Shown piece after piece: positions 36,347 through 57,636 of a stretch of DNA of 64,000 bases (its first letter is position 1; each line of letters opens with the position of its first letter). Position numbers and translations under genes: made by a program. The DNA comes from Rhytidiadelphus loreus. Its lineage: Eukaryota > Streptophyta > Bryopsida > Hypnales > Hylocomiaceae. Below the pieces are notes generated by a model. The model ran no database searches. It was not told the origin of the DNA and saw nothing but the letters and a program-made list of their open reading frames with translations. The stretch lies in assembly GCA_947034895.1 (NCBI GenBank), contig OX344764.1:2046001-2110000 (forward strand), read 5' to 3'.

Positions 36347-36841
36347 TTGGTAGCTTTGGAAGCTTGTGAACGAGTTTGGACCGATGATCAAATTTTAGAG
36401 TGCGTTCGAGTGGCAATAAAGAAAGATCCGACACTACAACCAATCTTGGCATATTTTGAGAATGGAGCTCAGCACGCCCCAATAGATATATGTCACCGGT
36501 TCCACTTGTATAAGTTTCAGAAGGGGATTCTTTGGTTTCAAGACACGGTCTTTGTTCCAGATGACGATGAACTCCGGCGGCAAATTCTAAGGTCTCGACA
36601 AGATGCCCCAACCACAAGACATCAAGGTCGAGCTAAATCTCTAGATTTGGTTGCAAGAAATTTCTATTGGCCAACAATTCATAGGTATGTACACCGTTAT
36701 GTCGACGGTTGTAATACTTGCCAAAGATCAAAATCTTCTCATCATGCACCTTATGGATTGCTACAATCTATTCTGACGGCGGAGGTCCCATGGAAACGAG
36801 TCACAACTAATTTCATTGTGAAGCTACCCAATAGCAATGGC
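36347..36841 (+). pseudogene. Gypsy integrase, N-terminal part
   Basis: It holds the H2C2 zinc-binding part of integrase: HQGRAKSLDLVARNFYWP and CNTCQRSK, then VPWKRVTTNFIVKLP. The frame runs straight into the hAT insertion at 36842 and resumes after 57628. Confidence 0.8.
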
Positions 36842-36935
36842 TAGGGTTGTCATACCAGACGGGTCGGAGTGATCGGACCGGACGGACGGACGCTCCGGAC
36901 ACCTTTCATTTTTGAAATTTTCCAACACTGAAATC

Positions 36936-37010
36936 AAGGCGCGGACGTTTCCCTCAGGGCGGGGACGTCTTGTCCAGGGCAGGGACGTCTTGGACAAGGC
37001 GGGGACACAT
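36936..37010. repeat. GC-motif array near left end of hAT element
   Basis: Four copies of the RGGGCGGGGACGT family (GGCGCGGACGT, AGGGCGGGGACGT, AGGGCAGGGACGT, AGGCGGGGACA) lie about 100 bp inside the left terminus. The same motif occurs upstream of the transposase and between the two cargo genes. Confidence 0.8.
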
Positions 37011-37093
37011 CAGTTTAATCCGAATTTTTGTAGAATTTTTGTACTTCATTTACGAATTCTTGCTTTCATAGGGTGAAAAACATTCTCTGCTGC

Positions 37094-37976
37094 CATCTTT
37101 GATGCCCTACCTAAGGCTGAAAAATTGTTATTTTAACATGAATTTTTTTTCATAAAATGACCTCTTTGCTATTAATATGTTGTACCAAATTAGAAGGCCA
37201 AAAGATTTACACATAAAAAGATATTCACAATCTACCAACATGTGTACTTGTGTGGTTCAGACTTTAGAGAAACAATTTCAATGCTACCAACTCCCGGAAA
37301 TTGAGAAATTAGAATTTGGCCATGAAATTTGTGGCATGAGATCATGACTTTGTTGATAACATTTGTGTCAAATTTCAAGTTCAAAGGATTTGTCCATAAA
37401 AAGATATTAAAAATCTACCAACGGACAAATGTATTTGAGACTTGAGAGAAACAACTTCAATGGTGCCCACTTTGACACCTTCCGAGGGACACAATTTTCT
37501 TTTTGATATCATGAAATTTTTGTCATGAGATCACCTCTATGTTCATAATATGCATGCAGAACTTCAAGTTCTAAAGATTTTTCTAGAAAAAGATATTTGA
37601 AATCTACCAACATGTGTGGGTGTGAAATAATTTCTAGGAACTACCTCTGTTGGTAGATTTCCAGTATCTTTTTATAGGCAAATCCTTTGAACTTCAAATT
37701 TGACCCACATGTTATCAACATAGACATGATCTCATGATAAAAAATTCATGGCCGAATTTTGATTTCTCAATTTCTGGGAGTTGGTACTTGGTAGCATTGA
37801 AATTGTTTCTCTGAACCACACAAGTACACATGTTGGTACATTGTGAATATCTTTTTATGTGTAAATCTTCTGGCCTTGAAATTTAGCACACATGTTATTA
37901 GCAAAGAGATCATTTTGTGAAAAGAATTTCATGTTTAAATAACAATTTTTCAGCCCTTCGGAAGGCATCAAAGATG
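37094..37976. repeat. Long inverted repeat (arms about 330 bp)
   Basis: The left arm at 37094-37423 pairs with the right arm at 37649-37976. Matching words include GATTTACACATAAAAAGATATTCACAAT and ACATGTGTACTTGTGTGGTTCAG on one arm and their complements on the other. The 225-bp loop is itself a diverged third copy of the about 185-bp unit that ends in CTACCAACATGTG. A transcript through it would form a long hairpin. Confidence 0.85.
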
Positions 37977-38366
37977 ATAGTAGTGAATGTTTTTTTCTAC
38001 GTGAATGCAAGGATAGTAATAAATTTAGTACACCTTACTTACAACATTCAAACTATACAATATAACTACACTCATGAATGTCATCTTCATGCATGGCAAA
38101 TGTGATAATTCTACAAACACAATTGGAAACTTTTTTATTTTAGATAACCAAAAACATTTTTATATTTCAAGCGTTGTTCAGTACAATAACAAGTTCACAA
38201 CACAATGAATATACTGCTCTCAAGATACACCTCCTCTTCTACTGGTTATCTAAGATTCTCCTTCTTCTTCTTGTAGATCTTCATTACTTCATGTTTCAAT
38301 TGGTGCAACTGTCTTGAACTCATGATGAATGAAGGTCTACAGAACACAGATGCTGTCAGGTGCCCC

Positions 38367-41300
38367 TCAATTGTTGAAACGACTTGATCTGTGAACTTCT
38401 TGTGTACCCGGATCTAGTAATGCAACATCTCGAATGACCACATCATCATCTGTTGGTGCCTCATCACAATCAGGGTCGTCTTCATCATCACCAACTTCAC
38501 TAGTTCCACGTTCATCTTCTCCATCGTCACTGTCTGTGGTCCACTGGTTTTTCACTTTCCAGTTCTCATTTCGAAGCTCCACAGCTGTTTGACCATGCCT
38601 ACGACTACGTTTAAACCTCTTGTGCCATTGAGCTCTAGGGTCCTCCGCGTCAGAATTTATAATGGGGCCTCCTTGTACTCGAGGAACGACATACGTTGGA
38701 GTGGACAAAGTTGGTCCTGGGACATACGTATTCAAAAATGGCTCTATCACCACGTTCGGGTCTCGGACCCCAATTCCTAGAAGAGGGTGTTTAGGGGGCC
38801 TCGATGACGACGCTTCGTTATTGTTTCATCCACCTCTAATATCACGGCCTCCAATCGTTGCACGACCTCTTGCTCTTCCACGGACGAAAATCCTTCCACG
38901 TCTTTGTTGATATTCACCCATAGTGTGGTGAATTGCGGATTGAAGGGCGGTACAGTGTCTACCACCCGTTGTAACATTTGAAATGCTTTGAGGCGTCATT
39001 GCAACATTTCCCACTGAGCCTAGCACTTCTTCGGAAGGTCGACAAGGAGCACTTGAAGTTGCGGGAGATGAAGGGTTAGAAATAATAGTATGCACTGCAA
39101 CTGGTGGTGGTATATGGGCTTCATCTTCAAGCGGGTCAGTAAACGCAAAAACATCATTGTGATCTAAATGTTCAGGGTCAAAACGCGTTCTTCCCATTGC
39201 ATTAACCTCCACAACATGTCTTGTGATCGGTCGTGCCATCCTTGTATTTCCAATGTTCTGGCCATGGCGTCCTCCAACAACTCTGTTGCTATCGCGGCCC
39301 CCCACTCCTCTGGGCCCCCTATTGCCATCACGATCGCAAACGGATCCTTTAGTATTCTGAGTTGCATTGTTCTTCAGATTCTCACTGCCATTTCCATTTC
39401 CCCCTTCGTTTTCCAAAGGGAGGTTGTTGTCATTGTTCGAGATAACATTATCATCATCGGCGTCCACTGTGGCCGGGTGATCACTCTCGGAAGACGATGA
39501 CAAAGGTTGCACTTCAGAAACAACTACATTTTCATCGCCAATGGGTGTAGGACTTTGGCGAGGATCGGCTCCCCAAGGGCCCCAGCGACCAGGGAGGACT
39601 TCCTCTTCCACTTCATGACCATCTCTGTAGTAATTTCTAGCTTCTGCAAGGTAATCAGCCCCCGTCCTCCACAACTCTGGATTTGGTCGGTATTCTCGGG
39701 GTGCTCGGTTAGCTTCCACATCAGCCTCTTCCTCTTCCTCAGCTACCATCGCGTCAAATTCACGATTGCGTTCAGCCACTGGAACGAAGCCAAGGGCATC
39801 TGGATCAGAATCCTCCGAGAGGATATTAGCATCATACCAACGAACAGGATTGGCCTCTGGTCTTTGCTGAAGTACACGGCTATTGGTATAAATATATACC
39901 AATGACTCAACCTTCTCGGGGGCTAACCGATTCCGGACCTTGTTGTGGACGAAGGAATACATACTCCAATTCCTTTCACATGAACATGCTGAACATGTCA
40001 ATGACAAGATACGAACGGCAATCTTAGATAGTGCTCGATCTCCAACCCTGTGCCACCATTGGTGAGGAAGCATCTGTGTCACTCGGATGTCAGGTGTCTC
40101 TGCTGCACTGTATGGCCCTGTGCCCTCCTCGAATTCTGTTAATTCCGCCAACACGTTATTAAACTCCACACCCACTACATTTTCCATTTTGCGGATGACT
40201 CGATACAATGCACGGAGGGCAACTCCATCAACCCTAAGTGCCACGTTATCCAAGAGATACGGATTTAGAAGGGCTCCAGCATAGTGAACATCCGTGAACA
40301 CCATGTCCCACCTAGATGTGAAAGACTCCTCCATGGTGGTGGCTATGTCATCTCGTAGGTTGAAGGGTGGCCCTCTTAAAGAAAACACATGGGCTCTCAA
40401 ATTGTGCATTACGAGCCACGCCCGACCCATAGCTGGTTCTCGGCCATCAAATATGCGCAATGCCTTCAACACGTCTTCAGTCATGTGCACGTAATTTGCA
40501 CATCGTTGCCAGAAGCCCACGTCTTCGATAGTTGACACCACATTACGTGAAGTTGTAGCTACTTGCTCCGCATTTTGTCTGTCTCGCAGACCATCAAAAT
40601 AATTTTGAACGCGCGCATGGTCTTTTAACCGTAGCAGTACTCCGTGAAGTTTCTCCAATCGATGCAACATGAGAAAATTACAAGCAAAGCGGGTTTCGCT
40701 GGGCACTACTAACTGAAGGGTCGGACTCAACTCCCAGAATACCGACATGGTCGCGTGATGGTTCCGAATGTTGGATAACGTGGCACTTAGGGTTGATGGA
40801 TAACGTGGCACAATCTTCTTGCCCTTTGAATTAAATAAATGTTGGATAACGTGGCACAATCTTCTTGCCCTTTGAATTAAATCTTTGAATTCTGGTACTT
40901 TGGTCCAATCTTCCAACATGAGATCCAAAGCATGTGCCATGCACCCCTGCTTGAAAATGTGTGAATACGTGCAAACGATATCATCCAATGCTCCAAGCAT
41001 ATTCGCTGCATTATCCGTACAAACCTGTGTCATGTACTTTGAACCCATTTTCTCAATGAATACCTTCATCTGGTCCGCTATGTAGCGCATGGACTTCTTT
41101 TGCCCGGTGGTGTCAATGGCCCCCCAAAATACATCACCGGTAGGGCACGACATCATTACATTCATTAGAGGCCTCCGGTTCACGTCATCCCAGCCATCAG
41201 TGCATATTGTCACCCCATAATGTTTCACTGCAAAACCAACTTTGGTTTCAATTTGCTTCTCGATTTGCAACCTCTTCGGTTCAATCAATTTCGTCCTGAA

Positions 41301-41927
41301 CTGATGGTAAGAAGGTGGACTGTATTCAAACCTTGCCATTGAGGTTGCCCTCACTACCTCAATAAAGGCTGGATTTCTTGCCACATTAAATGGCACGTTC
41401 GCCTCGTAAAAAAATGATGCCCACTTGTCATCCAACTCCTTCCTCTTCGCAACATTAAAAGCATCCTTCATACGTTGCTGAAGTAATGACCCAGATCTTG
41501 TGGAATTTGATGCAGCGAGACTTTGGGACCTCTGTATTGCATCATTCCCTTCAGGGAGAGTAACCCCTTCAGCTTGGGCGTCACCTGAACCCCCTCCCGT
41601 CACTTCGTTTTGAAAGGATTGGCTTGAACTTGCAACTGGAGTTGCTCTTGATGGACCAGTGGGAATTGATTCTCCTTCATACATGTCCTCGGGGCTCAAT
41701 CGTTGAGGAACAAAGTTTGCACAATTTGCAAATCGGTGGCGCACGGCTCGCGGTGCATTACGACAAATTGACCTCTCGGACTTCGCACCATATCCAAAGT
41801 GAGCAAAAGCGCGCTCGCGTTTATAGCTGAATGTTGCATTGCAAAATACACAACTCACTTTCCCCCCGTTCTCAGAGAAATTATACCACGGTTCCCATTC
41901 TTTTGTTTGCTTTCGTTGACTTCCCAT
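38367..41927 (-). CDS. hAT-family transposase with long acidic/RGG tail
   Basis: ATG at 41927 (MGSQRKQTKEWEPW). The frame is open for 1033 codons to a TGA at 38826-38828, then open in the same frame to 38367 (about 1186 codons in all). N-terminus: a BED-like zinc finger with CVFC and following His/Cys. Residues about 235-310 are the DUF659-type core, with TDGWDD (about 243) and TDNAANM (about 304), the first two catalytic aspartates of hAT enzymes. Residues about 618-686 are the hAT dimerisation region, with CERNWSMYSFVHNKVRNRL; its Glu at about 651 is the likely third catalytic residue. The tail is acidic and ends in RGRARG and RGG words, where the TGA sits (CGA-to-TGA type). The catalytic core is uninterrupted, so activity until recently is possible. 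Promoter: TATA and GC motifs at 42178-42310. Confidence 0.9.
40771..40882 (-). repeat. 46-bp duplication plus partial third copy inside transposase
   Basis: GGATAACGTGGCACAATCTT and the following 19 bases occur at 40798-40836 and again at 40844-40882 (period 46). A third copy of the first 14 bases lies at 40771-40786. The period is not a multiple of three, so the copies are read in different frames, yet no stop results. The insert lies after the RARRL word of the core, where family members pass directly to the RNHH word. Confidence 0.85.
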
Positions 41928-42177
41928 TGCGTTCACGACGAATGCAAACGTTTTCTTGGAGGAGGTAGAACTGTAGAAGAGGCTATTACACCAAATGAAA
42001 AGGACAAAATAGTAGTTAGCACCAATCAACTGCTTGAACTGACTTTTACATCACCTCAACAACTAACTAGGGCCATTTGTCACCCAAGTAGACTCCCAAG
42101 GAGCTCAAAGTGAATTGAAGTCCAAGATGATGAGGCCAAGATGACAAATGTAAAGAAGTCAATCTGACAAGCTTGGC

Positions 42178-42310
42178 TTTATAGCCTGGGAGTGCAGGGG
42201 TGCGGACCTCTTCTGCAGGGGCAGGGACGTCAGGGGCAGGGACGTCACACAATTCCGACGCGTCCCCGCCCCGGCGCAACGCATTCCCGGACGACAGGGC
42301 GCGGAGGTCC
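42178..42310 (-). promoter_or_regulatory. Transposase promoter: TATA box plus GC motifs
   Basis: On the minus strand TATAAA (42183-42178) is preceded by GC-rich words GGGCAGGGACGTCA (twice) and a CGTCCCCGCCCC inverted copy. It lies about 250 bp before the ATG at 41927. The arrangement (motif array, then CTATAAA) is the same as at 54614-54833. Confidence 0.55.
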
Positions 42311-42334
42311 TACCATAGACTTTGGTATGAATTC

Positions 42335-43760
42335 AGTTGTGGGATTCTTCCTTCCCATAGAGAGAGGAGAATCAACTAATGTAGTCAGCTCTTAATTTGA
42401 GCACAGGGAATATCTTCAAGTCAATGGCTGCATTAAGAGGTCCAACTACTTTTTGAGTTCAATGACAACGTATTAAAGCATGTCACTCCCTTCTTGAGGC
42501 CAAACTTCAAGTTCTTGCTTTCATCAAGCACTTGAGAAGTAGGACCCATGTAAAGTTGGAACCCAAAATAAAAATAAAAAATGAAATTGAACTTCCAAAC
42601 AAGAAAGACTAAATTTGTGTAACTAAAATCCCAAAAGATTTCGAGTCCTAATGAAAGTCAAGGTACATAATTGTTTAAATTCAAGTTCAAAGTTTATATT
42701 TCATTCTTATTAAGAAAAGATATTTGTGATTTTGGATTTGAAGTTTACAAATCAAACTATTACCAACGTATACTTCTCAAGCTTTTGGTTTAAGTCTTCA
42801 TTTTTTAAATACAAAGCTACAAGGTTTTGGATTTAAATCAAATACAAATTATAATGCTTTAGAATATGCTTGAAGGGGTTTTTTCCGTGAAAAAAGGGTA
42901 CAAGGATTTAGGGCTTAAAGACTTTAACCAAAATTTCTTGTAATGGGTAAAATAGGAGGGGTGGGTATTGAAATGAAATACTAGTTAAGTGATTTTTTAA
43001 TTCAAGGGCAAAGGTTCATTTCATTATTTTGGGTATGGGGATAGCAAAGCGTTTTGGGTCTTTGGGAATGAAATGAAGCAAAATTGTTTATGATTTCAAA
43101 TATTCAATCATTAGACTCCACCCTCTAATTTGTGTAATGGGATCCTAGAGCTCTAAACTCTAAAGTAAGTCTAGGACTTAGGAGGGGTGGGTATTGAAAT
43201 GAAATACTATTTAAGTGAGTTTTTAATTCAAGGGCAATGGTTCATCTCATTATTTTGGGTATGGGGATAGCAAACCCTTGGAGGGAGTTCAAATTTGGCT
43301 TGGAGGGAGTTCAAAATTGGCTTGGAGGGAGTTCAAATTTGGCTTGGAGGGAGTTCAAAATTGGCTTGGAGGGAGTTCAAATTTGGCTTGGAGGGAGTTC
43401 AAAATTGGCTTGGAGGGAGTTCAAAATTGGCTTGGAGGGAGTTCAAGGAGGGAGTTTAAGACTGGGTTCAAAATTGAAATTGGAATCCGCGTCCTGACTT
43501 CACGTCCCCGCCCTGACGAGACGTCCACACGTTCATGCCCTGACCCTCGGATGCAAGAACTCTCTCCACCAACGACGGGGGGGAATGGAATTGACCTTGA
43601 GATTTGAAATTAGCATAGGATTCTTCCTTCCCATAGAGAGAGGGAAAGAGGGAAACCAATTAATGTAGTCAGCCATTAATTTGAGCTCGGGGAATTTCTT
43701 GAAGTCAATGGCTGTATTAAGAGGTCCAACTACTTTTTGAGTTGAAAGAGAATTCATGGA
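42335..43760. repeat. Direct segmental duplication inside hAT element
   Basis: The block at 42345-42470 (ATTCTTCCTTCCCATAGAGA to CCAACTACTTTTTGAGTT) recurs diverged at 43615-43742, about 1.27 kb away. Within it, 42955-43050 and 43181-43277 are also copies of one another (GGAGGGGTGGGTATTGAAAT...). No gene is present. A GC-motif pair lies at 43488-43550. Confidence 0.75.
43277..43465 (+). repeat. 22-bp minisatellite, alternating variants
   Basis: Seven full units of CTTGGAGGGAGTTCAAATTTGG or its AAAATT variant plus a partial eighth. The first six alternate strictly between the AAATTT and AAAATT forms, which suggests growth by doubling a 44-bp pair. Open frames across it are by-products. Confidence 0.9.
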
Positions 43761-43764
43761 AAGA

Positions 43765-46250
43765 TGTGTCTCCTTTCATGTATCGCCCTTGGTCTTCTTC
43801 GCTTCTCCAAGGACTTGAGAAATAGTCCCCACATCCCAAAAATGGGATTTCTAGAGAATTAAAACTAAGTTGCACACTTTCAAGAAAACAAATATAATAA
43901 GATGCTAGAAGTTTTAGGATTTGTAACGGTAAACAAGGTACTCGTTTTTGAAAATTCAAGTTGAAGACTTAAAGGATGAATGTTATAGTTCTCCAAAATA
44001 GAAGCTAAAAGGGTTTGGAATTCCAAAAAAAAGGGTTTTAGAAATGTTTCGACGAAATTTAAGAGAATTTGAGCAAGTATGGAAATTTGGGGTATTCAAT
44101 GATAACAATTTCAGAAAATTTGAGCAAGTATGGAATGTATTTGAATTTTTTTATAGAAGCATACCAAAAAAAATCCTACTATATTTAGGATAGTAGGATG
44201 TGTGTAATTAATTATAAAAAATATTGACTATTCAAATTTTAGCTTATAAGAATTTCGGATGATGAATGGTGGAGGCAGAAAATGGTGGTTATTCTATGAA
44301 TTCATTCTTCATGGCAAGTTGGCTAAATGAGTACATGACTACATGCTTCAATATTTTTACAACCAGTCAACTTTCCCAAAACAATTCCACCCTACATTCT
44401 TAATTTAAACTTTACACTTTACAGGCTTACAACACAAATTATGGATTACTCTAATATATATTTTGTAATTCATATAATTTTATTTCCACCTTTACCTTTA
44501 AGAAATCAGAATAATTTTACTTTTATTCCTAAATTATTGTAAAAACAAAAAATAAGAAGAAAAATTATCGGAGGAACTAGCAAAATGTATATAAATTTTG
44601 TATATCAATTACATAAAAGGATTCATTTGGTTTCAACTTCAAGTTCAGGACATCAAGATGGAATTCGACTTCAAGTTGTTTCACTTATTTGATACTTTGA
44701 TGTGGCTTTCTTTTGTGTGAAAAATAAAATAAGCAATTGGATTTTTTTTTTGGTTCACCTCCATTACTACTTGCACCTCCCCCCAAAATTTCAAATTAAC
44801 CCCTAAAGTCCCATTGTCCCCTGAGGGGACACTTTAGAATTCGGGCAGGTTTCTATGGGCTGAAATTTTATCCTAATTTTGCAAAACTTTTTTTGAAGAT
44901 AGAAAATGTAATAAGCTTTGTGGGAATATAATTTTTATTTCAGTCGGTGCCTGGAAGCCAAAGTTATACCACAAGATGCGTAGAATTGAATTCGGTGGGC
45001 AGCAAAAGAAATTGAATCTTTAGAATGCAATTTTCAGATTTTTGGTTTTTTAAAAGGTTATGTTTGCTTGCTAGAACAATCTCACCATTGGGATTATTGT
45101 ATTTCAATCCCATCTAAGAGCTATTAATTGTTTAGTTTTTCTTTCAATTTTGAACGTGCTTCTACAATTCTACACTTCTACTTGACAATTTCTTGAAGTA
45201 TGAAAATGAAGTTGTTATTTTTTGAATTTTTTTTCATAGACTCCCAACTCAAGTCTTCAACACAATAAATTTTTAATTCAAATTCCATAGTACACATTTT
45301 TTCTACAAATAGCAATAAAAGTCATCTAAAATTGCAGTTTAGTGTTGAAGAAAACTTGTTTTTTAAACTTTGAATGCTCATATAGTCATATCTCTCAATC
45401 TGTACAGTCTAACTTCATGAAATTTTAACCACATAATTTCAAGCAAGTAAATTTCAAGATCCTACGGTTCAGTTTCAAAAATAGAATTCTTTTTGAATCT
45501 TGGACAACATAGTAGAAATGGCAGTTTTTATTGTTTTTAGACAGAAAAAATGTCATTAGGGGGGTGATTGAATTGTTTTCCTCTTTTTCCTCATATATGA
45601 TTATATGTTGATTTTCTGCAATAGAAAGTTAGAAATGATATCAATTAGAAACATTCGCAAACAAAATTGCAATTTCTGTAAATGATATAGAATTCAAAGT
45701 TTTAAGCAATAAAAATACCTGATTGTTATTCAAGCTAAAATAAGAAATTTTACCATTTTTGGATGGATCAAGTCATTCAAAGGTTAATGTATCCCTTCAT
45801 ACATTAACATCAATATATTTGTAACAAAATATATATTAATGTTAAATTGTTAATATCTTTTTAATTTTTATACACATACAATAATATTAATACATATATA
45901 TTTACATGAATATATACCTTCACACACTCAAAATCCGAAATGCACTTATTCTTAGGCCATGAGTACATTATTATATTCACATATCACACATGCCATATCA
46001 TGCAAAGGAATTCAACAATTGAATATATGTATTTCATATGCATCATGTAGTACAAAAATTGAAAAGTATACAATACTTTTTCCACAATAAAATATGCATA
46101 TCCACAAGTCTTTGTCTAATACTGTTTGTAGTACCGAACTACCAAAGTAGCAATTCTATAAGCCTCGGTAATGATAAGTGCCAAAGTCTATAACTGTATA
46201 TGCAAAACATGCTTTGTTAATTAGTAATTACTAGTTTAGCACACTAAAAA
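43765..46250. other. AT-rich non-coding stretch
   Basis: About 2.5 kb without supported genes. It holds ordinary AT-rich intergenic-type words and a short dyad near 45830-45900 (ATATATTAATG...). Nothing else is recognised. Confidence 0.55.
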
Positions 46251-46256
46251 ATGCAC

Positions 46257-46745
46257 TCAGTCGATGTTCATTGGACTGTTTGCAGTGCCACTAGGTCCAA
46301 CCTCGTCGTCGTGTGTGCCTCGTTGCATTGGAAAGTCTTCGTTGGAGCCTAGTTGAAGTCTACGAATCGCAGACCGAGTTCTCCTCGCTGGTCTGTCTTC
46401 TTCTAGAATGGCCCTCATGATTTGTGATTGCTTGAGACTCTCCAGAGCTCGGCGTATATCCGGGCTATGTTGTTCAAGCAAAAAATCCAGCCCTTCGTTT
46501 CTGAAAGTTTCCCTCCACTCAGATTCCGATAATTGAGCAAGCTCCGCGGGGTCGGGCATGTCAGGGTCTTCCCCAATACGAATTCCATTGTCATCGGTGA
46601 CTCGAACTCCATCAACGCCCCATAACCATCGCCGAGGGTGAGGTCCAAATTGAAACTTGAGTCCAACCTCGTCCCAATGTCCATTGAAGCATTGAAAGAA
46701 AAAATTCCGCCGTCCTTGGCTATACTTGTCTTTCATCGGAATCAA
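46257..46745 (-). CDS. Unrecognised ORF in hAT element
   Basis: A leftward frame of 162 codons with protein-like composition. Aromatic-rich start (GRRNFFFQCFNGHWDEVGLK), then RRWLWGVDGVRV, an acidic helix-like middle (ELAQLSESEWRETFRNEGL) and a basic/acidic tail. No family recognised. The frame just upstream (47050 to 46826) may be a preceding exon, since only 80 bp with two stops separates them. It could belong to a separate insertion together with the LTR-like copy B. Confidence 0.4.
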   Translation of the reverse strand: MIPMKDKYSQGRRNFFFQCFNGHWDEVGLKFQFGPHPRRWLWGVDGVRVTDDNGIRIGEDPDMPDPAELAQLSESEWRETFRNEGLDFLLEQHSPDIRRALESLKQSQIMRAILEEDRPARRTRSAIRRLQLGSNEDFPMQRGTHDDEVGPSGTANSPMNID

Positions 46746-46825
46746 ATGGTGTCAGACTTGGACAATTTGATTGGGGTCAGTCTCCCAACCACATTCAGCA
46801 GCGACCTATGTCTTGTCCACCGATG

Positions 46826-47050
46826 TCATTTGTAATTTCCAACTCCACACCAAGTCTGTTCCCCACATTCTACGGTGATCTGGGGCATTCGTGGCATTGT
46901 ATTCCCAATGTGGTGGCATGTATGGAACCAAGCTGTGAGTGTTTCTAACTCCACCCTTAAGTCAGAAATTTGCACACAAGTTCTAGCGGCATAAGTTAGC
47001 AAATTGTAAGGGTGAAATGTAAACGTAGTGTTCTTTGGCCTTCCAAGCAA
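46826..47050 (-). CDS. Possible upstream exon of unknown gene
   Basis: A 74-codon leftward frame with TFTFHPYNLLTYAARTC and ELETLTAWFHTCHHIGNTMP. Composition suggests a folded protein with a Cys/His pair. No family recognised. No clear ATG; it may be joined by splicing to the short segment at 48158-48087. Confidence 0.3.
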   Translation of the reverse strand: MLGRPKNTTFTFHPYNLLTYAARTCVQISDLRVELETLTAWFHTCHHIGNTMPRMPQITVECGEQTWCGVGNYK

Positions 47051-48086
47051 TGGACACTTTGTTATGTTGATTTTTAGCTAATTTAAGTACTTCAAAACAC
47101 TCTAATAGTTAAGAAATAAAGGTTGTTGAGGGTTAGTTAATTGTGAATTAAACTTCTAGCTAAACTAAAATTCTACCTAAACTAAATCCAAGAATACAAT
47201 TTGCCCTTTCCAAAATGGTAAAGCAAGTTGGATTCTGATATTCCTAATGAAAGTTATGTGTGGATGAAATTCGTACCTAATTCTATCCTAAAAACTTCAT
47301 CCGTCAACTAAAAATAGCAAAATAATATAAAATAAATCTAAATTTCAGGGTTTAAAGGTTAATTAAGTTATTTAACGGAATTTTTAGAGAAAACCTAATT
47401 TTGACCTATTTTAGGATTTTTCATCCAAAACTAGGTCAAATCTTCATCCACACTTTTATCCTTCAAATTAAAGTAATTTTAAAAGTAAAAGGTGGATTTG
47501 GAATCTTCAAAAGATTCCCTAGAAGATTATGGTTTCAAAAGATTCCCTAGTCGTGCCTTGAGAATATTCCTAATTGTTCTTTAATTAATCCTAATTCTAA
47601 GTTATTATTCTAATTTTAGTGAATTTTTAGGGTTTTATAGTTTTTATGAGTAAAATGATTAATTAACTTCTTGTTAAGATAAAAAGTAAGAATTTAGAAC
47701 TTTTAGGTGAAAACTTTTAAATGGATGAAAATTCCCCTTGGTTGGATGGAATTCGTTCCTTTAATAATTTTCAAGAGAATAATTAGATAAATTAGGTTTT
47801 GACTTCCCCTAATTATTATAATATTCCTTAAGTTCCTAAATTAAATTAGATTCCTTTTGAGATTCTTTTGGATGAGATTACTATTTTGTTTTCCAAATTA
47901 ATTCCAAATTAATCTAATTATTACCTTTACGAATTTAGTTAAGTTTTTTGAAAGGCTTTCTAACAATTTAAATTCTACTAGCTATTGGATTCTTAATAGT
48001 TAATTTTGTTAGTTTTAATTTTCTAATCTAAATTTTTAAAGAATGAAAGCAAAAGAAAAGACAAAAGATAAATTTTGAAATCATAC

Positions 48087-48158
48087 CTCGGTGTCAAGAA
48101 TGTCGATTGTTCCGCCATCGCAAAACACCATCATGATGGTCTCCTCGAAATTCTCCAT
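48087..48158 (-). CDS. Possible short first exon (24 codons)
   Basis: ATG at 48158, then MENFEETIMMVFCDGGTI to a donor (ACCGAG/GTATGA) at 48086. The layout (LTR-like leader, short ATG segment, donor, AT-rich intron) parallels the segment at 21429 in copy A. Support is weak. Confidence 0.25.
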
Positions 48159-48699
48159 CGTCTTTCATGAATTTGAAAGAAATCTTAGTATTATTGTTTC
48201 TAAACCTATCTAAAAAATCCAAGTTTGTTAGGTTTGGCAATTTAAAACTAATCCTTTGATTTTAGGAATTTAAATTAAATGATAAATTTAATTCATTTTT
48301 CCCAAGTTTTCAATGAATAGTAGTTTTATTCGATTGCCAATTTTTAAATAGTTGTTTTGTTAAATATTCCAAAATATTAGTTGTTGTTTGTTTTTATTGT
48401 TTTGGCTTATTAGGCCTAATAAAACAAATCCCCCAAACTACAAACAAACAACTAATTTGGCTTTGGAATCCTAATTAATAACTAAAACCAACCGAATGAA
48501 TAGTATTCTAATAAAATAATCTTAAATAATCTAAAACAAATCTATCAATGAATAGGAAAAGGAATAAAAGGATGAATGACAATCCAAATGAATAGTAAAA
48601 AGAATAAAACAATCCGAACAATTCCAACTTCAATAGTAAGATGCCAATGAAACAATAAAATAATTAATTAGGAAGATTCTCACCTTGATCCTTTGTTCT

Positions 48700-51600
48700 C
48701 CTTGGCTAACTTCTTATAATCCTTCTCTCTTCCGTTTGCTTTTTGTTTAATTGTTGTGGTTGGCAAGCTATGGGTTTTTGAGACGCTTGTGAGGTTGGAG
48801 GTGATCCTTGGTGTTCAATTTTTCTCTAAAAAGACCAAAAGTTGTGTGCGTGGCAACAACCGCCTATGCTTGGTATTTGTTTTTGGTTATATGATGATCC
48901 CTTGATTTGTAACCAAGTTTTTTCTGATTTCCCTTATGCTATCCCTTATGGTTAGTTCACGGACTGAGGCCCTGGATTATCAAGACTCCCCGCTGTTTCC
49001 AATCATTCAGTAAGCGTTGGGCTCCTCGCACAACAGTCACTGGTTCCCCATACAGTAGTCACTGAGCTCCCCGCACAGCAATCACTGGGCTCCCCGTCGC
49101 AGCTGCCACGTGTCGGGCCATGGTTGGCCGGCAACCCCCTCCCCATCTGACCTTCCCCGTCGGTCCTTGCTCCATCCTTCTAGCTCCTCCGTCAGTCCTT
49201 CGCTGATCATGTATGATTATTGGAACTACCGATTTGGCTCTCCAACCTGGCTTAACAGGCTTTTAAGCTTTGGGTAATATCAATAAACTGAGATTTTCCT
49301 TGTAAAAAAGAAACTCAATCCATTAAGAGAACTTTTCTAGAAAATTAAAGGAAGATCAAATTTTTTTGTAAGTAGCACTCAAACCCACAAAACTACAATG
49401 AACTATTTTCTATGGAAATTAAAGGTAATAAATCTAGCAATTTGAAACGAAATTAAAGCAACAAAGAGTTGGAAGCAAAGTACCTCCAACACATGCACAA
49501 GCAAAAGAGAAATCAATCTTTGAAATTTGGACCTTAAATAAGTTCCATGAGAATCTTATTCTGTTGATTCCTTGGTTTCAAAACTTCGCCATGTAGGTTA
49601 AATTCACGATTAGATGGTCAGTTTAAAAGTAAATTTAAAATTTTTTAAATCAAAGCTCCGCCGTGCGGAAGCAACCCTAGGAATTAACAATCAAATCAAA
49701 GTTTCAAGTACCTGTTTCCAGGTTTCAAAGTCAAAGCTCCGTCGTGTGGGAGCAACCCCAGGAAATAACTGACAACTTAAATTTCAAGTACCCGTTTCCA
49801 GGTTTCAAAGTCAAAGCTCCGCCGTGTGGGAGCAACCCTAGGAAATAACTGACAACTTAAATTTCAAGTACCCGTTTTCAGGTTTCAAAGTCAAAGCTCC
49901 GCCGTGCGGGAGCAACCTCAGAAATAACCAGTATCCAAGGACCCAAACTAGTATTTTGAAACTTAATTCTTAAAGGAGGTACACATGATAGTGTTTAACC
50001 GAACATTAAAAACTAATTTCCAAAATTCAAGGCAAAGTTCTAGTTTAATCACTAAAGGAGGTACACATGACAGTGTTTAACCGAACATTAGCAATTATTC
50101 AAACCAAACACCCGTTATACAACGAGTTTTGGCACGTGGTGATTCTCAAAACCTTTTGGCAAAGTCCAGCCTTGCCGCTTTAAAGTTTTAAGTTCACAGA
50201 CTATTCTCAATTCACACAAATGGTTGGTTAGTATCCAAAAGAACAATAAAATCAACTAGAGTTTGAGAACTACTCCCACAACTCCCAAAATATCAAAGTT
50301 TTGGGGCTTGAAGCCTCCAAATTCAAGAAATAAGCTAGTTAACACAAACAACACTAGAGTTAGGGGATTTCCTCCACCTAAACTCTTTGAAAAGCAAAGT
50401 TTTGGGGCTTGAAGCCTCCAAATTCAAACAAGAAAAGAAAACAAAGCTTTGAAAGGGCCCTCTGGACCTTCAAAGTACAAGATAATAGAAGAAAATAGAA
50501 GAAAATAGCCAAAACTTGGCTTAAAAAGTGCTCCGACAAGTGTCGGTAGCACGACAAGAGCAACAACAAGAATGAAATAAGAGAATGAGGGCCACGAACA
50601 ACCTCGAGGAAGGGCCTTATATACTCGCTCCCGGCCCCCCCCTGGTAAGTTGTTCGTAAAATTATCTTTACTTTCAATCTAGATATTTCGCTAAACTACC
50701 TAAACGTATTTTCTAAATAATCTTTGTTTAATGGGAAGGAAGGTTCTCAAGCGAGTTCCTTCTAGGCCCTAAATGGCCTTAGAATCTTTTCCCAAATCAA
50801 ATATTTGATTTTCCCAAGATATTTTGAAAACCTACCTAATTAACCAAGATATTTTGTGTTTTAATCTAGGGTTAATTCTAAATTGGCTTTCTTTAGTCCA
50901 AAAGATGGCTTCTTACACAAGACAAGTATCTTGGGCAAATCCAATCTTCGATTTTACAAGAGATATTTGCAAAATCAACCCAAATTAATCCAAAATTACA
51001 TTTTAAAAGTCAAACTAAGGGCTGACCCTCTCTATCTTTTGAGGGACAACTCGAAACTGAAAACAAACTGCGCCATCGCGTTCAAAAAATCCCAATTAGC
51101 CTAAAGGACCCCTTACCCTTACCTCTCCAGCCGTTTTAAAGCGCAAATTTGAGTCACGGTAACTCAGAACAAAAGTTAAAAAGCTAACTTTTGGAGTTTG
51201 CGTCTTTTGATGAAACTGTCGGTCTTGGGTGGTTTAGAATATTCGTGGGAGTAAGAATTGACCCTTGAAACGCTCCGTTCAGACACCACTAGCTCCTGGT
51301 TCGCCGGTCAACCCGCCGTCAAGTTGTAAATTCTTATAAAATTCGCTATCGGTCCTAATTCTGGTAGTTGGGAATGTCGGAATGTCTTCAAACTTGACAG
51401 GGCTCTTTATTGGCACACAAAACACTATCCTAATTTTTAGTGAGATTTTACCGCAACATTGGTAATTTCTAGGAATTTACAAATGCAGTTTTAAGCGGTT
51501 GACTTCCCATGGAGTCATCGTGGAGTTTTGTAAAATCCCGAAACTTTTGGGCAATCTTCTACAAGATGTCCATCAACTAAGGGCAAAACCAAATCTCCAA

Positions 51601-51750
51601 TAAGAATGCTATTTCTAGCAATTCTTTAATAATTTCCACCCGGGGGGAAAATTATTCTTGATACCGGGGGAGTCTTGGATGATCGGGCTTCTATTTGACC
51701 TCCTGGCATGCTTTGACCTAGAAAAGCACCATTCTGTATGTTCCAATCAT
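48700..51750 (-). mobile_element. LTR-retrotransposon-like insertion, copy B
   Basis: Minus-strand relative of the block at 18.55-22.4 kb. Shared landmarks: GCGGTAAAATCTCACTAAAA (51454-51435), the GGGTTGACCGGCG word, a TATA box (50624-50618) beside GGCCCTTC, CTTTGAAGGTCC, leader repeats with GGCGGAGCTTTGA, and then CCCCGCACAG-type GC repeats (48990-49110). Edges are approximate and no target duplication was found. If real it is nested inside the hAT element. Confidence 0.5.
49651..49930 (-). repeat. 80-bp tandem repeats (4 copies)
   Basis: Units start at 49651, 49732, 49812 and 49892, each with CAAAGCTCCGCCGTGTGGGA and TTTCAAGTACCCGTTTCCAG. They are nearly identical, so recent or homogenised. 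They lie in the leader of LTR-like copy B. Confidence 0.9.
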
Positions 51751-51840
51751 CATTTCCTCCATCTTGGTCTGTGAATGAATGTATTTCTCAAAATTACCTG
51801 CAAACAATAAATCTAACTCTTTCGAGTTGGATTTGGACTG

Positions 51841-51900
51841 ACTCGGACTAGACTCAAACTAGACTCGGACTAGACTCGGACTAGACTCGGACTAGACTCT
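51841..51900 (+). repeat. 11-bp minisatellite
   Basis: Five and a half units of ACTCGGACTAG, one with AA for GG. Confidence 0.9.
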
Positions 51901-52195
51901 AACTTTTAACCAGTTTGTTACATGTATACTTATAGCTGTTGTATTACATGAACAAGACACTAGGACTGGTTAACTCTCAAATTCTCACATCGCTCGGAAT
52001 TACTGACTTAACTACTTATTTATACTAATAAGACCTAAAATTAGTGAAAATGTAACGTCTTACGTGTTTCACGCATTTAAGGCCATGACACACCCCTTTG
52101 GTAGGGACTTCTACCAAAACCCACAATAATTGTATTTTTATATGTTTTTTCTTATTTTTCACTTAAAAATTAACTAAAAATCGCGAAAAATAAGT

Positions 52196-52627
52196 TCAGA
52201 ATTCCAAGTGCCAACTTGAGGGCCCACACAAGCCAAACAACTCGTACAAGCGCTCGTGGAAGGGAGCCTTGCACATTGCGCACCGACGACGAACAATCAT
52301 GAAACTGATGAGGCAAAATGGGTGGTATACATGGTTGCATGTGCCCAACTACATTCCACCTTCAGGGCCAAATGGATTCATACAAATGGGACATGTGGTC
52401 CCGTCGTGCACAAAACTTGAAGGATTTGGCCACTCCAACAACGGGTTGCCTTTGTAGTCGACCTTCGACCCAAGTTGGTTTTTGAAATCCCAATTGTGTT
52501 TGGACCAATCAATGATTATTTTTCCACCATCAAGCTCAATGATTGCCATGTTGGGACTGAAAAGATCATCCACAAGGGCCCATGAAGTCAAGCCAAACAC
52601 CCTTTCTTGATTGTGCTCAGTGCTCAC
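52196..52627 (-). pseudogene. RING-H2 zinc finger frame with one in-frame stop
   Basis: One leftward frame from 52627 to a TGA at 52198-52196, interrupted only by TAG at 52351-52349. Before the stop it has VDDLFSPNMAIIELDGGKI and ends CPICMNPFGPEGGM; after it, LGTCNHVYHPFCLISFMI and RRRCAMCKAPF. The metal ligands fit RING-H2: C-x2-C-x13-C-x1-H-x2-H-x2-C-x10-C-x2-C. RING-H2 proteins usually act as E3 ubiquitin ligases; that is family knowledge, not shown here. The stop falls inside the finger and could come from CAG. It is probably the 3' part of the coiled-coil gene upstream (54521 to 52716), joined by an intron or a shift near 52640-52710. Confidence 0.65.
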
Positions 52628-52715
52628 TGTAGTAGTGGTCCAATTTCTTGAACTCTACTACCAGTTGTCATGTCTTGTCAACGGTGAACACGCATGCCAA
52701 CTTCCACTGGTAGTA

Positions 52716-54521
52716 CTACTCCACCAAGGCATGCAAACGATTTTGTAATGTTTGATTTTCGCCTCGCAAGTTGTTGAGCTCAAGGTTGTTGTCCATAACC
52801 ATGCCCCGAACTTTAGTCTGCATTGGTACGTTGCCGGTGGCAATTACTTCGGGAAAGGCCAATGAATCTTCTTGTGTAGACATGGCAGCATCACTTGGAG
52901 CATTTTGAACCGGAATTTGAGAATCCCGAGGAGGTCCTTGTGCATGTCCTCGTGGATCCTGACCTTCGTTCACCCGGGGAGGACACTCCCTATGTTTTAG
53001 CAACCTACGTGCGGCGGAAAAAGTAAAACAAGTAATACACCTTAAAATTTAATTTCTTTTTCAAAAAAAAAATTATGGATAGATTTTACTACTTTAGAAG
53101 TTTATGTTTTGAATTATTGGTATTTTTTTGTGCTAATAGTAATTAGTTATAAATTTTTGAAGAAAAAAGATACACTGTAAAGCTGAAAATAACTTTCACA
53201 CCTCTATATTATATAAGAAAAAAAATTTGAAAAATGAAAAAAAAATTATATAGAATAGCTTTCTATTGAAAGTTTATTTTGGTTGAATATTGATGCAATA
53301 GTCATCTTCATGTGAGCTCTATAAATATTTTAGTTGGAGAACATGCCATTTTAGTTTATTTTTCAACCCTTTCTGGAAAATATATCTTATGTTATTTGGA
53401 ATTGAATTTTTTGTCAATAGAAACCTTTAGTCATTGTTAAACAAAGCTCAAAATTTTAGAATGAAATTATAGTTTATTCAAGGTGAATTACATGTATTAC
53501 TTTTTCCACCGCCACACGTGGGTACCCCAAATGTAGTGAGAGTGTCCTCCTCTAGTTCGTTCATCATTTGTGCTGCTTGTAGAGCTTGCCGAAGCTCCTC
53601 TATGTTACGTGCTTGTTGAGCAATTACTCTGTCTTTGAGCGTGATGTCTTCTCGTAACTTGCCCACATCTTCATATAGAGAATGTAGTTCATCACCTCGG
53701 TCTTGTAACTGCACCCTCAAGCTTTGTATGGTGTCTGCAACAGCCATAACATCAACAACTCCAAGAGTTGGTTCATCAGGTGCTTGGAATTGCGCCTGAG
53801 CAACTCCAAGTACTGGTTCAATGGGGCCTTGGACCTCTACATGAATATTTGGTTCTGGAAATTGTTCACGAGGTGCACATTGCGCCCTTCTCCTTTGTGC
53901 ACGTTGTTGTCCTCTGGGGGTTAATTCCACCACAACATGAGATCCATCAGAGTCATCATCAGTAGTAGAATCCGTTGTCTCATATGTGTTAGGCGGCTCA
54001 ATACGTGTGTTGACCCTGCCCAACCCTCCTTCGGGATATCTCATAACCCCCCTTGGAATCATTCCATTTGCTGGTGTTGGTATCTTGATACCATCTGCTG
54101 TGGTTGGCGTGCCCTTCAAAGTGGACCAATCCACCCGCTTGTTCAATCTCACCTCCGCATGTACACCTCGTGTAATGAAAAGGTGAATTTCATTCTTTTT
54201 CACAGTGGGTTTTTCGTATAACACTTGGTATACTTCGATGCATCTTTGTTTAAAGGCCTCATCGATGCAGTGTTTCAAATTTGCTTTGTGAAATCGGCGG
54301 TGGTAGTTGTGTCGCTCTTCAGGGAAGGCCTTGTCAATGTGGCACCATTCTATGTAAGTGATGCAAGTTTCGAAACTCCACGATTCTGGCACGTCATTCC
54401 AGCCCCTAAATGCCAGTTTTTCGGGGTTTCGAAGTACATGTAACCTCTTCCGATGTTTGTTACCCGGCCTTAGTCGAATCCTGTCTCGTTCATCTTTGTT
54501 GGTTCTTGGTGGTGTGGCCAT
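52716..54521 (-). CDS. Coiled-coil protein gene of hAT element, two exons
   Basis: ATG at 54521 (MATPPRTNKDERDRIRLRPG). Exon 1 is open to 53478 (347 codons). A basic globular-looking N-terminal domain (WSFETCITYIEWCHIDKAFPEERHNYHRRFHK) and a proline-rich linker precede a C-terminal coiled coil (VQLQDRGDELHSLYEDVGKL, AQQARNIEELRQALQAAQMM). A donor (GGAAAAA/GTAATA) near 53490 and an acceptor (GCACGTAG) near 53010 would join exon 2 (53003 to 52716), which has another coiled coil (NNLELNNLRGENQTLQNRLH). I do not recognise the family. It is divergent from the kinase-like gene at 55007 and shares its promoter array. The intron is almost wholly homologous to a MITE at 60529-61113. Confidence 0.55.
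53038..53478. repeat. 440-bp repeat shared with the TIR element at 60.5-61.1 kb
   Basis: It aligns along its length with 60597-61037; shared words include GAAGTTTATGTTTTGAATTAT, TGAAAATAACTTTCACACC and CAAAGCTCAAAATTTTAGG. Homology also reaches left to a diverged end, CCCGGGGAGGACACT at 52973, matching the TIR CCCGGGGAGATCACT. No right TIR is seen here. Confidence 0.85.
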
Positions 54522-54613
54522 CGTGAATTTTTTTGGCAAAAACCTGTATACTGTAAAGGGCCCTGTACAACGCCAACGACCAGCTCAATGAAGAGGTGGA
54601 GGATTTGGAATAC

Positions 54614-54833
54614 GCAGGGCGGGGACTAATGGGGCGGGAACGGACTTTTATAGTCCTCAAATTTGCCTGTCAAGGCGGGGACGTCTGGGGCCAGGGCGGG
54701 GACGTGTCCGAGCCAGGGCGGGGACAGGTCCGAGCTAGGGCGGGGACGGCTCGGGCGGGGCAGGGACGTGTCGGGCCAGGGCGAGGACATGTGGCGGCCA
54801 GGGCGCGGACGTGGGAGAGGCGGGGACTATAAA
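54614..54833. promoter_or_regulatory. Bidirectional promoter with ten GC motifs
   Basis: About ten copies of RGGGCGGGGACGT lie in 220 bp, all in the plus orientation. At the left edge the minus strand reads GGACTATAAAAG (54656-54645), pointing at the coiled-coil gene whose ATG is at 54521. At the right edge the plus strand reads GGACTATAAATCC (TATAAA 54828-54833), pointing at the kinase-like gene (ATG 55007). TATA-to-ATG distances are about 125 and 175 bp. Motif array and divergent TATA boxes are seen; shared regulation is inference. Confidence 0.7.
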
Positions 54834-55006
54834 TCCTAAAGGATCCCTCATTTCTTCTTTGCCAAGTCCACGCCCTACGCCTCACACCTTTGTTTGCGCA
54901 AGCGACCCTTGGAAGTGAGTTTGGTGGGTGATTGGGCTTGGCCCACATATAGCACCCGGTTTTTTTTATTTTCTCCAAAACTTTGGTGGTTCCGAAATAT
55001 TGTACA

Positions 55007-56587
55007 ATGGCAAGACAAGGGAGTGGGTCATCGGGTCACCGCTCGGTGTTTGAAGACTTGGATGCAATTTTTGAGGTGGTGCCTCCAGCCACGAATGTGT
55101 CAGGGGCTTCAGGGTCATCCAATCCCTCATCATCCAGCAGGTCGAAGCGTAAAAACCAACCCACTCCTGACATGCCCCCTCACGAATATGTGCTCGAGGC
55201 TAGAGCAATAGCGGTCAATTTTTACACACGACGAAGTGTGGGAATGATGTGCAAAGAATACGTGAATTTCAACGAAGAAGGGTACCACAAATTGAATGCT
55301 GAAGTACGGCGAGAGTTGGAGACCAAATTTAGAGCATCCGAACGATTCAACAACTATTAAGATTACTGGTTGCACTTTGAGTGGTTGGATAAACAAGTGT
55401 CGCAGTTGACCACCAATATTGTGGCGAATTGGTGTTATCACACGAAGAAGAAAGATGATGGTAGTGATTGGGACACGCATGACAAGGAATTTGGTTCAAG
55501 ATTGTACCAAATTCAGAAGTTCTCCCAACAATTTTCTTCCTCGCGTAGAAAGAAACAAGCACCATGGAAAGCGACGCTTGAAGACCAAATACGAGCTCAT
55601 TGTGTGAGTGGAACATTCAAGTGGTTGGAAAGTTGCGTGAAAGTGAATCCCATGCCGAATCAAACTATGACTAGATCATATGGGACTATGAGGAAGGTGG
55701 TGCTCACGAGACTACAAAGCATTCCCAGTTGAATTTGCTTCGCCGGAAAGACTTTGAAGACCTCGAATTAAAAGGAGAAGCGCCAAGCTATTGTAAGCAA
55801 GGCGAGGGGGTGTCCAGTGATACATCCTGGTATCGTAAGACTTGCGTACATCCATCCAAAAACAATGGAAGGCTATACGCTATGGTGGAATGGAGGGTCT
55901 TTGATTTCTTTCTTGGCCAAGTACAACTCAAAAGTGAGTGAATCGTTGGATGTGGATGACATCACGAGACAACATGATGCAGGGTTGACACAGGAAGAAC
56001 TTGGTTGGGTTGCAACTTATCGTTGAAAGAGCGTGAATTTGGCTTTATCATTGCTTGTCATAGTGGGAAAATGCCATGAAGCAAAATATTTACACAATGA
56101 CATTAATCCATCCAACGTTTTGCTCCATTTTGATGAATGGAAAGAAAACACAGTGTACATTGGGATTTGCGATTGGGGGCTTTCTGGTCGAGTTGTAGAG
56201 AAGGAGCCATCAAGGTATGGTTATCGAACCATGGAGGAGCTCCAACAGGAGAAAAAACAACGAAAACATGCAGCCCCTGAGTTGTTCTACATGTATGGAA
56301 AGAAGGGGTCAGAGACCTTACTTGAAGTCATGCAGAAAAAACACTTCTACTCCGTGGCTGCTGATGCATATGCAACTAGATGGATAGCATATCAAATTTG
56401 GAAAGAAGAGTGGGATCCAAAGTATTTTACGACCAAAAACCCAGAGCAGTATCAGCATTTGAGGATTCAACTACTGAGCCTCCAGAAAATAGATGTAGGC
56501 GAGAGGGCATCTGTGCCTGATGTTCTAGACACTTTGAGGAAGGCACCTCATTGTTGGACTATGCCCGACTATTGTTATCGTACGTAA
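55007..56587 (+). pseudogene. Protein-kinase-like gene of hAT element, four in-frame stops
   Basis: One frame of 526 codons from ATG 55007 (MARQGSGSSGHRSVFEDLDA) to TAA 56587. It has no frameshift but has stops at 55358 (TAA), 55730 (TGA), 55769 (TAA) and 56024 (TGA), each one C-to-T change from CAA or CGA. The first 220 codons are an unrecognised region. Then come kinase landmarks in order: RSYGTMRKV (glycine loop), ICFAGKTLK (ATP lysine), HPGIVRL, LWWNGGSL (hinge), YLHNDINPSNVLLHF (catalytic loop, HND for HRD), ICDWGLSGR (DWG for DFG) and HAAPELFYMYG (APE motif). The catalytic Lys and both Asp are present. Substrate unknown. Its promoter is the shared array at 54614-54833. Confidence 0.75.
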
Positions 56588-57540
56588 TATATTGTTTTTA
56601 CTTTTTGAGCTCTAGTATGTGATAGTTTTATAGGCAGACCACACATTTTTGGTTAGAAGAGCATCAAGCATGTGTATTTCATGGTTGCTACACATTTCAT
56701 ACATAAAGATACGGACATATGGTGAAAATCTTGTAATATGCAATTTGGTCTTTCTTCCATCAAGATAGTTGTATGACTTCTGTGAATTTGTGAATGTGTA
56801 GTAAACAAAGTAGCAAACAACTAATTAGATTTGAAATTGATTTTTTAGAGTTTGATATACAAAAAAAGGCAAAAAGCTTAGAATCATTCCGTTTTGATCA
56901 ATGAGTCAAAAATTATGAGGATTATATGAGGATTTTCTGTTTGCGGGCAGTTTTGGATTTCCTGCTCTAAAATAAACTTTGACATCCTTTATCTTATCCA
57001 ATTTTCAATATTTTTGGACAAAAATAAAATTATAGGATGTACATACATTATTACAACATTTCGACCATTGGAATTGTAAATTTTCAATTCCATATTTAAA
57101 TTGTAAATAATTTAGTATTTTTAATCATTCTCTAGTACTACCTACTTACTATTTTTTTCCTATATGTTGTACTATTCCAAATGATCTGAAATTTTTCAAG
57201 CATGTGGCCAACTTGTCTAGGAAAACAAATCCAAAGAAGCACCACCATTTAGGTCATTTTTTCATAGAAATGTGAGCTTGTGAAGTGCAGCTGCCCTGCT
57301 TTTCGCAGGGTCAAAAAAATGATTTTAGTTAATTTCAAATTTTGAATGCTTATATCTTGCAATTTACCTGGTGGAAATGTCTGAAATTTTTACCACAAGT
57401 TTTTGATACTATATAATACAACATCCTACGGTTAGATATGTCAAAAAAAGTTTTTTATCAAAATTTTGGTAGTTGTACTAGAAATGACAGTTTTAGAGAG
57501 TTTTTGGTGAAAACATAGTGACGGTCCTTTAAGGGTTAAA
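56588..57540. other. Non-coding right part of hAT element
   Basis: AT-rich, no supported gene. CGGACGGG words appear only in the last 70 bp (57570-57615), beside the right TIR. Confidence 0.6.
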
Positions 57541-57636
57541 AAAAGTCAACTTTAGTGTTGACCACATCGGACGGGCGAGACCTCTATCGGACGGGCAAAC
57601 CGGACGTCCATCCGGTATGACAACCCTGGCAATGGC

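Follow-up and report, generated by a model that had tools for sequence, protein, structure and literature searches.

A large hAT transposon family in the moss Rhytidiadelphus loreus with a probable accessory module of RING-H2 and kinase genes

Background

The hAT transposons, whose terminal inverted repeats (TIRs) are of the CAGGG type, are usually taken to be small elements with a single gene; the Ac element of maize measures 4.6 kb and, to our knowledge, has no accessory genes. Here we analyze a 64,000-nucleotide stretch of the genome of the moss Rhytidiadelphus loreus (contig OX344764.1, positions 2,046,001 to 2,110,000; hereafter the window), which holds an element with hAT ends containing a transposase gene together with genes for a coiled-coil RING-H2 protein and a protein kinase. 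We present evidence that this element probably belongs to a large three-gene hAT family that was once autonomous, the copy in the window having decayed.

Several described transposons offer points of comparison. Fungal IS3EU transposons carry a transposase, a TET/JBP enzyme and an alpha-kinase, and the fungal hAT7 elements carry TET/JBP (PMC12730594). They share with the moss element conserved accessory enzyme genes in a fixed order, and one of them possesses a kinase while the other is a hAT; however, both are fungal, the alpha-kinase is not of the Pkinase fold, the hAT7 duplications are of 7 bp, and the gene content described in the available text of that study includes no RING gene (PMC12730594). 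Among plant elements, VANDAL (MuDR) encodes VANC, an anti-silencing protein whose targets often form tandem repeats, and resembles the moss element in being a DNA transposon that encodes an accessory protein and has tandem-repeat arrays in its non-coding regions, although it is a MuDR rather than a hAT element and VANC is neither a kinase nor a RING protein (PMC5735166). The maize Ac/Ds system provides a parallel within hAT proper, with short TIRs, subterminal repeats, and an autonomous element that has non-autonomous derivatives (PMC3260210). ToxhAT is a 14-kb element with extra genes that was formerly described as a hAT, but it has TA duplications, is no longer called a hAT by its authors and occurs as a single copy per newly sequenced isolate (PMC12506042). 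By analogy, VANC of VANDAL and the fungal TET or alpha-kinase transposons would be the closest published logic for the accessory genes described below. We found no description of a hAT element with RING and kinase genes among the titles and abstracts searched, most subscription journals and Repbase Reports lying outside that search.

Results

Ends, target site and copies of the element

The element spans positions 36842 to 57628 of the window, beginning with TAGGGTTGTCATACCAG and finishing with CAGGGTTGTCATACCGG (reverse-complemented), and is bounded by a perfect 8-bp target-site duplication, GCAATGGC. A sequence-only reading of the window had proposed matching 15-bp ends and the duplication around 20,787 bp, as well as an insertion within a gypsy integrase frame that resumes on the far side, and all of these were confirmed: upon scanning the two flanks separately, we recovered Integrase_H2C2 from the left flank and rve from the right one (29.9 bits, below the 32.6 cutoff). 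The sequence YAGGGTTGTCATACCRG is present at both termini, constituting a short TIR (hAT TIRs are 5-27 bp; PMC12506042). The assignment to hAT is based on the 8-bp duplication, the short TIR, the dimerization domain and the D-D-E residues, all four of which are present. A 17-base pattern derived from the ends occurs at 136+146 (282) places in the 407-Mb genome, whereas the reversed control gives 0+1.

From the first 100 of these 282 places we picked by hand ten long facing TIR pairs (E1 to E10; spacing limit about 21 kb). All ten contain transposase, RING and kinase genes in identical order and orientation, with gene pieces that are mostly 84-97% identical to those of the window copy at the protein level (77% for one transposase piece of E7). 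Seven show perfect 8-bp duplications, E7 has one mismatch, and E2 and E10 have none. The earlier proposal of a large cargo-carrying hAT lineage had been accompanied by the suggestion to search the genome for full-length copies with the same TIRs, duplications and cargo order; these copies do exist and support it. Eight of the ten measure 13,962 to 14,318 bp, and the two insertion-bearing ones 18.1 and 19.5 kb; hence, the ends of the proposed 20.8-kb unit hold, but 20.8 kb was rejected as the base unit. The window copy instead comprises a base unit of about 14.1 kb, to which later insertions of 0.57, 5.3 and 0.58 kb have added about 6.4 kb, these and some 80 bp in the transposase gene being its extras relative to other copies.

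Locus searches across the genome listed at least 37 transposase, 56 RING and 91 kinase loci of this first family or an intermediate type, with the window copy missing from the RING list; the two transposase rows of the window were merged into one, and seven kinase rows (second pieces of split copies) and one short transposase piece were left out of the kinase/transposase tally. At least 29 of the 37 listed transposase loci are accompanied by a same-strand RING gene and an opposite-strand kinase, and at least 35 by an opposite-strand kinase. Likewise, a divergently oriented kinase is found no more than 12 kb from at least 52 of the 56 listed RING loci, in 47 cases at 1.2-2.5 kb. The average likeness among first-family copies is 97.9% for each gene. 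Two of them, 75.8 kb apart (G000:C1, near 90.43-90.45 Mb and 90.51-90.52 Mb), have identical match scores and spacing, and are therefore probably a single segment duplicated along with its surroundings.

The encoded proteins

All three genes of the window copy carry in-frame stops, and the RING gene is additionally interrupted by two insertions. The transposase of this copy matches DUF659 (110.7 bits, cutoff 34.7; 6.9e-32) and Dimer_Tnp_hAT (38.6 bits, cutoff 21.4; 9.4e-10), and its gene has a premature TGA at 38826-38828 and the extra 80 bp or so near 40772-40851. Elsewhere in the genome, stop-free transposase frames, counted within the match, reach 1201 residues at three loci and 1212 at one; the 1240-residue frame of E2, which served as the search query, diverges from most copies past residue 1110, its end probably being shifted. 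The catalytic D-D-E triad, which we take by analogy to be D285, D346 and E692, is well retained in 18 aligned rows, D346 being invariant and the other two kept in at least 90%. The 16 aligned relatives of the transposase are 22-63% identical.

The sequence-only reading had counted a kinase, a RING-H2 and a coiled-coil gene as three extras. The kinase and the RING-H2 gene stand; the coiled coil, however, belongs with the RING in a single gene of about 790 residues, and the unbroken 809-residue frame of E9 rules out two genes, which had looked separate because of the 5.3-kb and 583-bp insertions. The RING finger has a C3H2C3 ligand pattern of the RING-H2 type (read in protein P0040), with the four cysteines present in 23 of 23 rows and the remaining ligands in 19-22 of 23. 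There are 26 database relatives, none of them a named host gene, of which 15 cover at least 93% of the protein and nine have precomputed RING models; the 24 that were aligned are 35-69% identical and mostly keep the ligands. The protein would be ubiquitin-ligase-like.

The kinase, of about 525 residues, is transcribed divergently from the RING gene and has a 544-residue frame in E3. The piece in the window scores 30.3 bits against Pfam Pkinase, under the cutoff of 31.7, and that of E2 (P0023) 39.8 bits, above it. HRD-, DFG- and APE-type motifs are present as HND....N, CDWG and APEL, with D383, N388 and D407 unchanged in all 12 rows of the alignment, and 11 aligned relatives out of 19 are 42-80% identical. 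A sequence search against solved structures gave no match for the kinase at 0.001. Viral contigs yielded 11 pattern matches and no relatives. Kinase relatives from the moss Ceratodon purpureus (P0014 and P0016) are annotated as hypothetical proteins, their locus tags being of the U and V types, and belong to clusters of 95 and 1 members; the size of the larger cluster suggests repeats.

Short copies with the same ends

A hand-picked set of 16 short facing TIR pairs of 1.4 to 11.3 kb, drawn from the same 100 end places, is uniformly devoid of RING, kinase and transposase genes: none contains a complete gene, although two fragments of some 30 residues are present in one. Twelve are flanked by perfect 8-bp duplications, three by duplications with one mismatch, and one by none. 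Six of them, compared with E1, have in common the right end (about 390-980 bp) and, at the left end, 110-145 bp, and also keep parts of the E1 non-coding block at about 4.8-6.5 kb, with the three genes gone. Copies with these ends that lack the cargo were what the sequence-only reading had named as evidence against its proposal, and in form all 16 pairs are of this kind; but the transposase is absent from them too, and we rejected them as a refutation of the three-gene unit on that ground. Rather, they look like non-autonomous derivatives in an Ac/Ds-like relation to the long copies.

A second gene arrangement

The genome also contains a second type of kinase, 35-36% identical to the first, at no fewer than 52 listed loci, many with 552-residue frames of equal score. 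All 52 are more than 30 kb away from every listed first-family locus. Diverged RING and transposase queries each listed 150 rows, and in each case 53 first-family rows were excluded; what remained was three other groups of RING rows (32, 60 and 5) and 97 further transposase rows. Their positions were compared with random placement in 1000 runs (the lengths of C3 and C5 being estimated). Downstream of at least 32 of the 52 listed second-type kinases, no more than 30 kb away and in the same orientation, lies a related transposase (in 25 cases at 8.0-9.9 kb), while one kinase has a listed transposase upstream and none has one on the opposite strand; the random expectation is a mean of 0.2 and a maximum of 2. 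In the first further RING group at least 16 of the 32 listed loci have a transposase within 40 kb downstream (random mean 0.17; 11 at 17.8-20.3 kb), and at least 8 have a kinase downstream (random mean 0.07; 6 at 10.3-10.7 kb). The smallest further group has a transposase at 3 or more of its 5 listed loci.

The second order is thus RING, kinase and transposase on one strand, with regular spacing and a span of over 20 kb, and we infer that it represents one hAT element. The 1.8 kb upstream of one second-type kinase had yielded no RING gene, and later searches place it about 10.4 kb upstream. A GC-rich array with units like CCACCCGAAGTCGCC lies upstream of a second-type kinase (L044, 1262-1801); its position is comparable to that of the GC array preceding the kinase in the first family, although the motif differs. 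Rows of the third, 60-row RING group match positions 1-211 of the query (e.g. C2:13892734 and C4:15688732), many with 843-residue frames and near-equal scores.

Anatomy of the window copy

The features of the window copy are collected in Table 1. The repeated GC-motif arrays claimed by the sequence-only reading are indeed present, at three sites. A further tandem array, with a 22-bp unit, 7.7 copies and 96% matches, occupies non-coding sequence between the transposase and RING genes (43277-43446). The frames scanned in the 5.3-kb insertion have no recognizable Pfam domain, and it is possibly a solo long terminal repeat (LTR) or a gene-less LTR element.

Table 1. Coordinates, in the window, of the element and its parts
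Feature	Position	Strand	Remark
Target-site duplication, left (GCAATGGC)	36834..36841	.	
Left TIR	36842..36858	+	
Subterminal GC-motif array, 20-bp unit, GGGCGGGGACGT type	36934..37009	+	
Later insertion or variant stretch of ~570 bp, inverted-repeat-rich	37085..37656, approximate limits	.	absent or rearranged in E1, E5, E9, E10
Transposase gene: DUF659, hAT dimerization domain, D-D-E residues	38367..41927	-	
GC-motif array upstream of transposase gene	42216..42251	+	
Coiled-coil RING gene, last part	46257..46933	-	
Later insertion of 5.3 kb, TG..CA ends, 5-bp duplication CAAGC	46934..52228	.	related sequence elsewhere in E9
Coiled-coil RING gene, middle part including RING-H2 finger; in-frame stop 52349-52351	52229..52972	-	
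Later insertion of 583 bp in RING gene, 8-bp duplication TTCGTTCA	52973..53555	.	
Coiled-coil RING gene, first part; start codon 54519-54521	53556..54521	-	
GC-motif array between divergent RING and kinase genes	54674..54813	+	
Kinase gene; in-frame stops 55358-55360 and 56024-56026, frame change between them	55007..56587	+	
Right non-coding terminus; portion retained by short copies	56588..57628	.	
Right TIR	57612..57628	-	
Target-site duplication, right (GCAATGGC)	57629..57636	.	

Discussion

The common ends, the duplications, the single gene order in many copies and the short copies that have these ends but no genes show a family with a common gene trio whose past movement left hAT signatures. 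We consider it probable, at roughly 0.7, that this is a hAT lineage with three genes of its own, in which the coiled-coil RING-H2 protein and the kinase form an accessory module to the transposase. The second arrangement and the 26 relatives of the RING protein, 15 of which cover nearly its whole length, suggest that these are old accessory genes of the lineage rather than chance cargo. Conservation of the protein sequences across relatives likewise points to a deeper constraint on the three genes.

On this basis we propose that the transposase, with its finger and D-D-E core, would bind the TIRs and the GC arrays; the three arrays, located near the left TIR, ahead of the transposase gene and between the divergent genes, are candidate binding sites. 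The element would have moved by cut and paste using its own transposase, which presumably mobilized the short copies as well. The RING protein and the kinase may then act on behalf of the element, instead of being the products of passenger host genes, and would most probably mark and remove host silencing or checkpoint proteins, or tune the transposase; anti-silencing or control of transposition thus appears to be their most likely role. A sharper form of this proposal, which we offer tentatively and hold to be possible rather than likely, is that of an offence module of a kinase and an E3 ubiquitin ligase, in which the former marks host silencing or checkpoint proteins, the latter removes them, and the GC arrays function as an address label, the module being kept with the transposase despite the reshuffled order. 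As related kinases form a large cluster in the moss Ceratodon purpureus, such a module may span land plants.

Several observations weigh against the three-gene lineage. Among first-family copies the normalized nonsynonymous-to-synonymous values (singleton, shared) are 0.83 and 0.83 for the transposase, 0.83 and 0.96 for RING and 1.09 and 0.51 for the kinase, and no clear constraint is visible in any of the three genes, all of which have stops; variation of this kind is expected following a burst. The larger short copies contain 1-2.5 kb with no match in E1, and are hence not simple deletions. The second arrangement is known from gene positions; only 5 of the 37 listed RING loci in the two linked groups have both partners among the matches listed, and none of the 60 loci of the third RING group is near a transposase or second-type kinase among the matches listed. 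As for the proteins, the RING of the window copy and of E9 scores 22.9 and 24.9 bits in Pfam, short of the cutoff of 27; the glycine loop and beta-3 lysine of the kinase are poorly kept and vary in motif, with only four rows reaching the N-lobe; and the structure models are weak, with a pLDDT (predicted local distance difference test) of 60 for the RING protein and 38 for the kinase.

These last points bear on an unlikely alternative, which nevertheless fares best among the rivals, namely that one of the two proteins is catalytically dead and acts as a scaffold binding DNA or the transposase. The uncertain N-lobe lysine and glycine loop, the RING scores below the cutoff and the different residue borne at H552 by 4 of 23 RING relatives are what such a scaffold might be expected to show, but the catalytic-loop and DFG-type aspartates are invariant in every aligned kinase and the four RING cysteines in every row.

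It is conceivable, though we think it improbable, that host RING and kinase genes were captured by one hAT copy through Pack-type transduplication and then amplified without function for the element. hAT elements are able to hold pieces of host genes, and the lack of visible constraint among first-family copies is in keeping with such an origin. However, related pairs recur beside a related transposase in a different order, whole frames of the genes exist in some copies, and no named host gene appears among the 26 RING relatives. Still less probable is a cargo that benefits the plant, in the manner of some fungal Starships: kinase and RING genes are of a signalling type, yet the high copy number and the decay of many copies suit a selfish element better, and no conserved single-locus copy is seen among the matches listed. 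The least probable of all is that the RING and kinase genes belong to another mobile element inside the hAT, for while the window copy does contain nested insertions, the spacing and strand are near-constant in at least 29 of the 37 listed loci and the block is common to all ten long copies, its internal ends not having been systematically searched.

If the three-gene hAT lineage is borne out, its two extra conserved genes of a signalling type, which in a single genome occur in two arrangements and which have relatives in further datasets, would make counter-defence by plant transposons directly testable; the system provides both autonomous and non-autonomous forms, as well as a second group in which many frames are uninterrupted. 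There is also a warning here for annotation, in that kinase and RING genes of this kind may be genes of mobile elements rather than host gene families.

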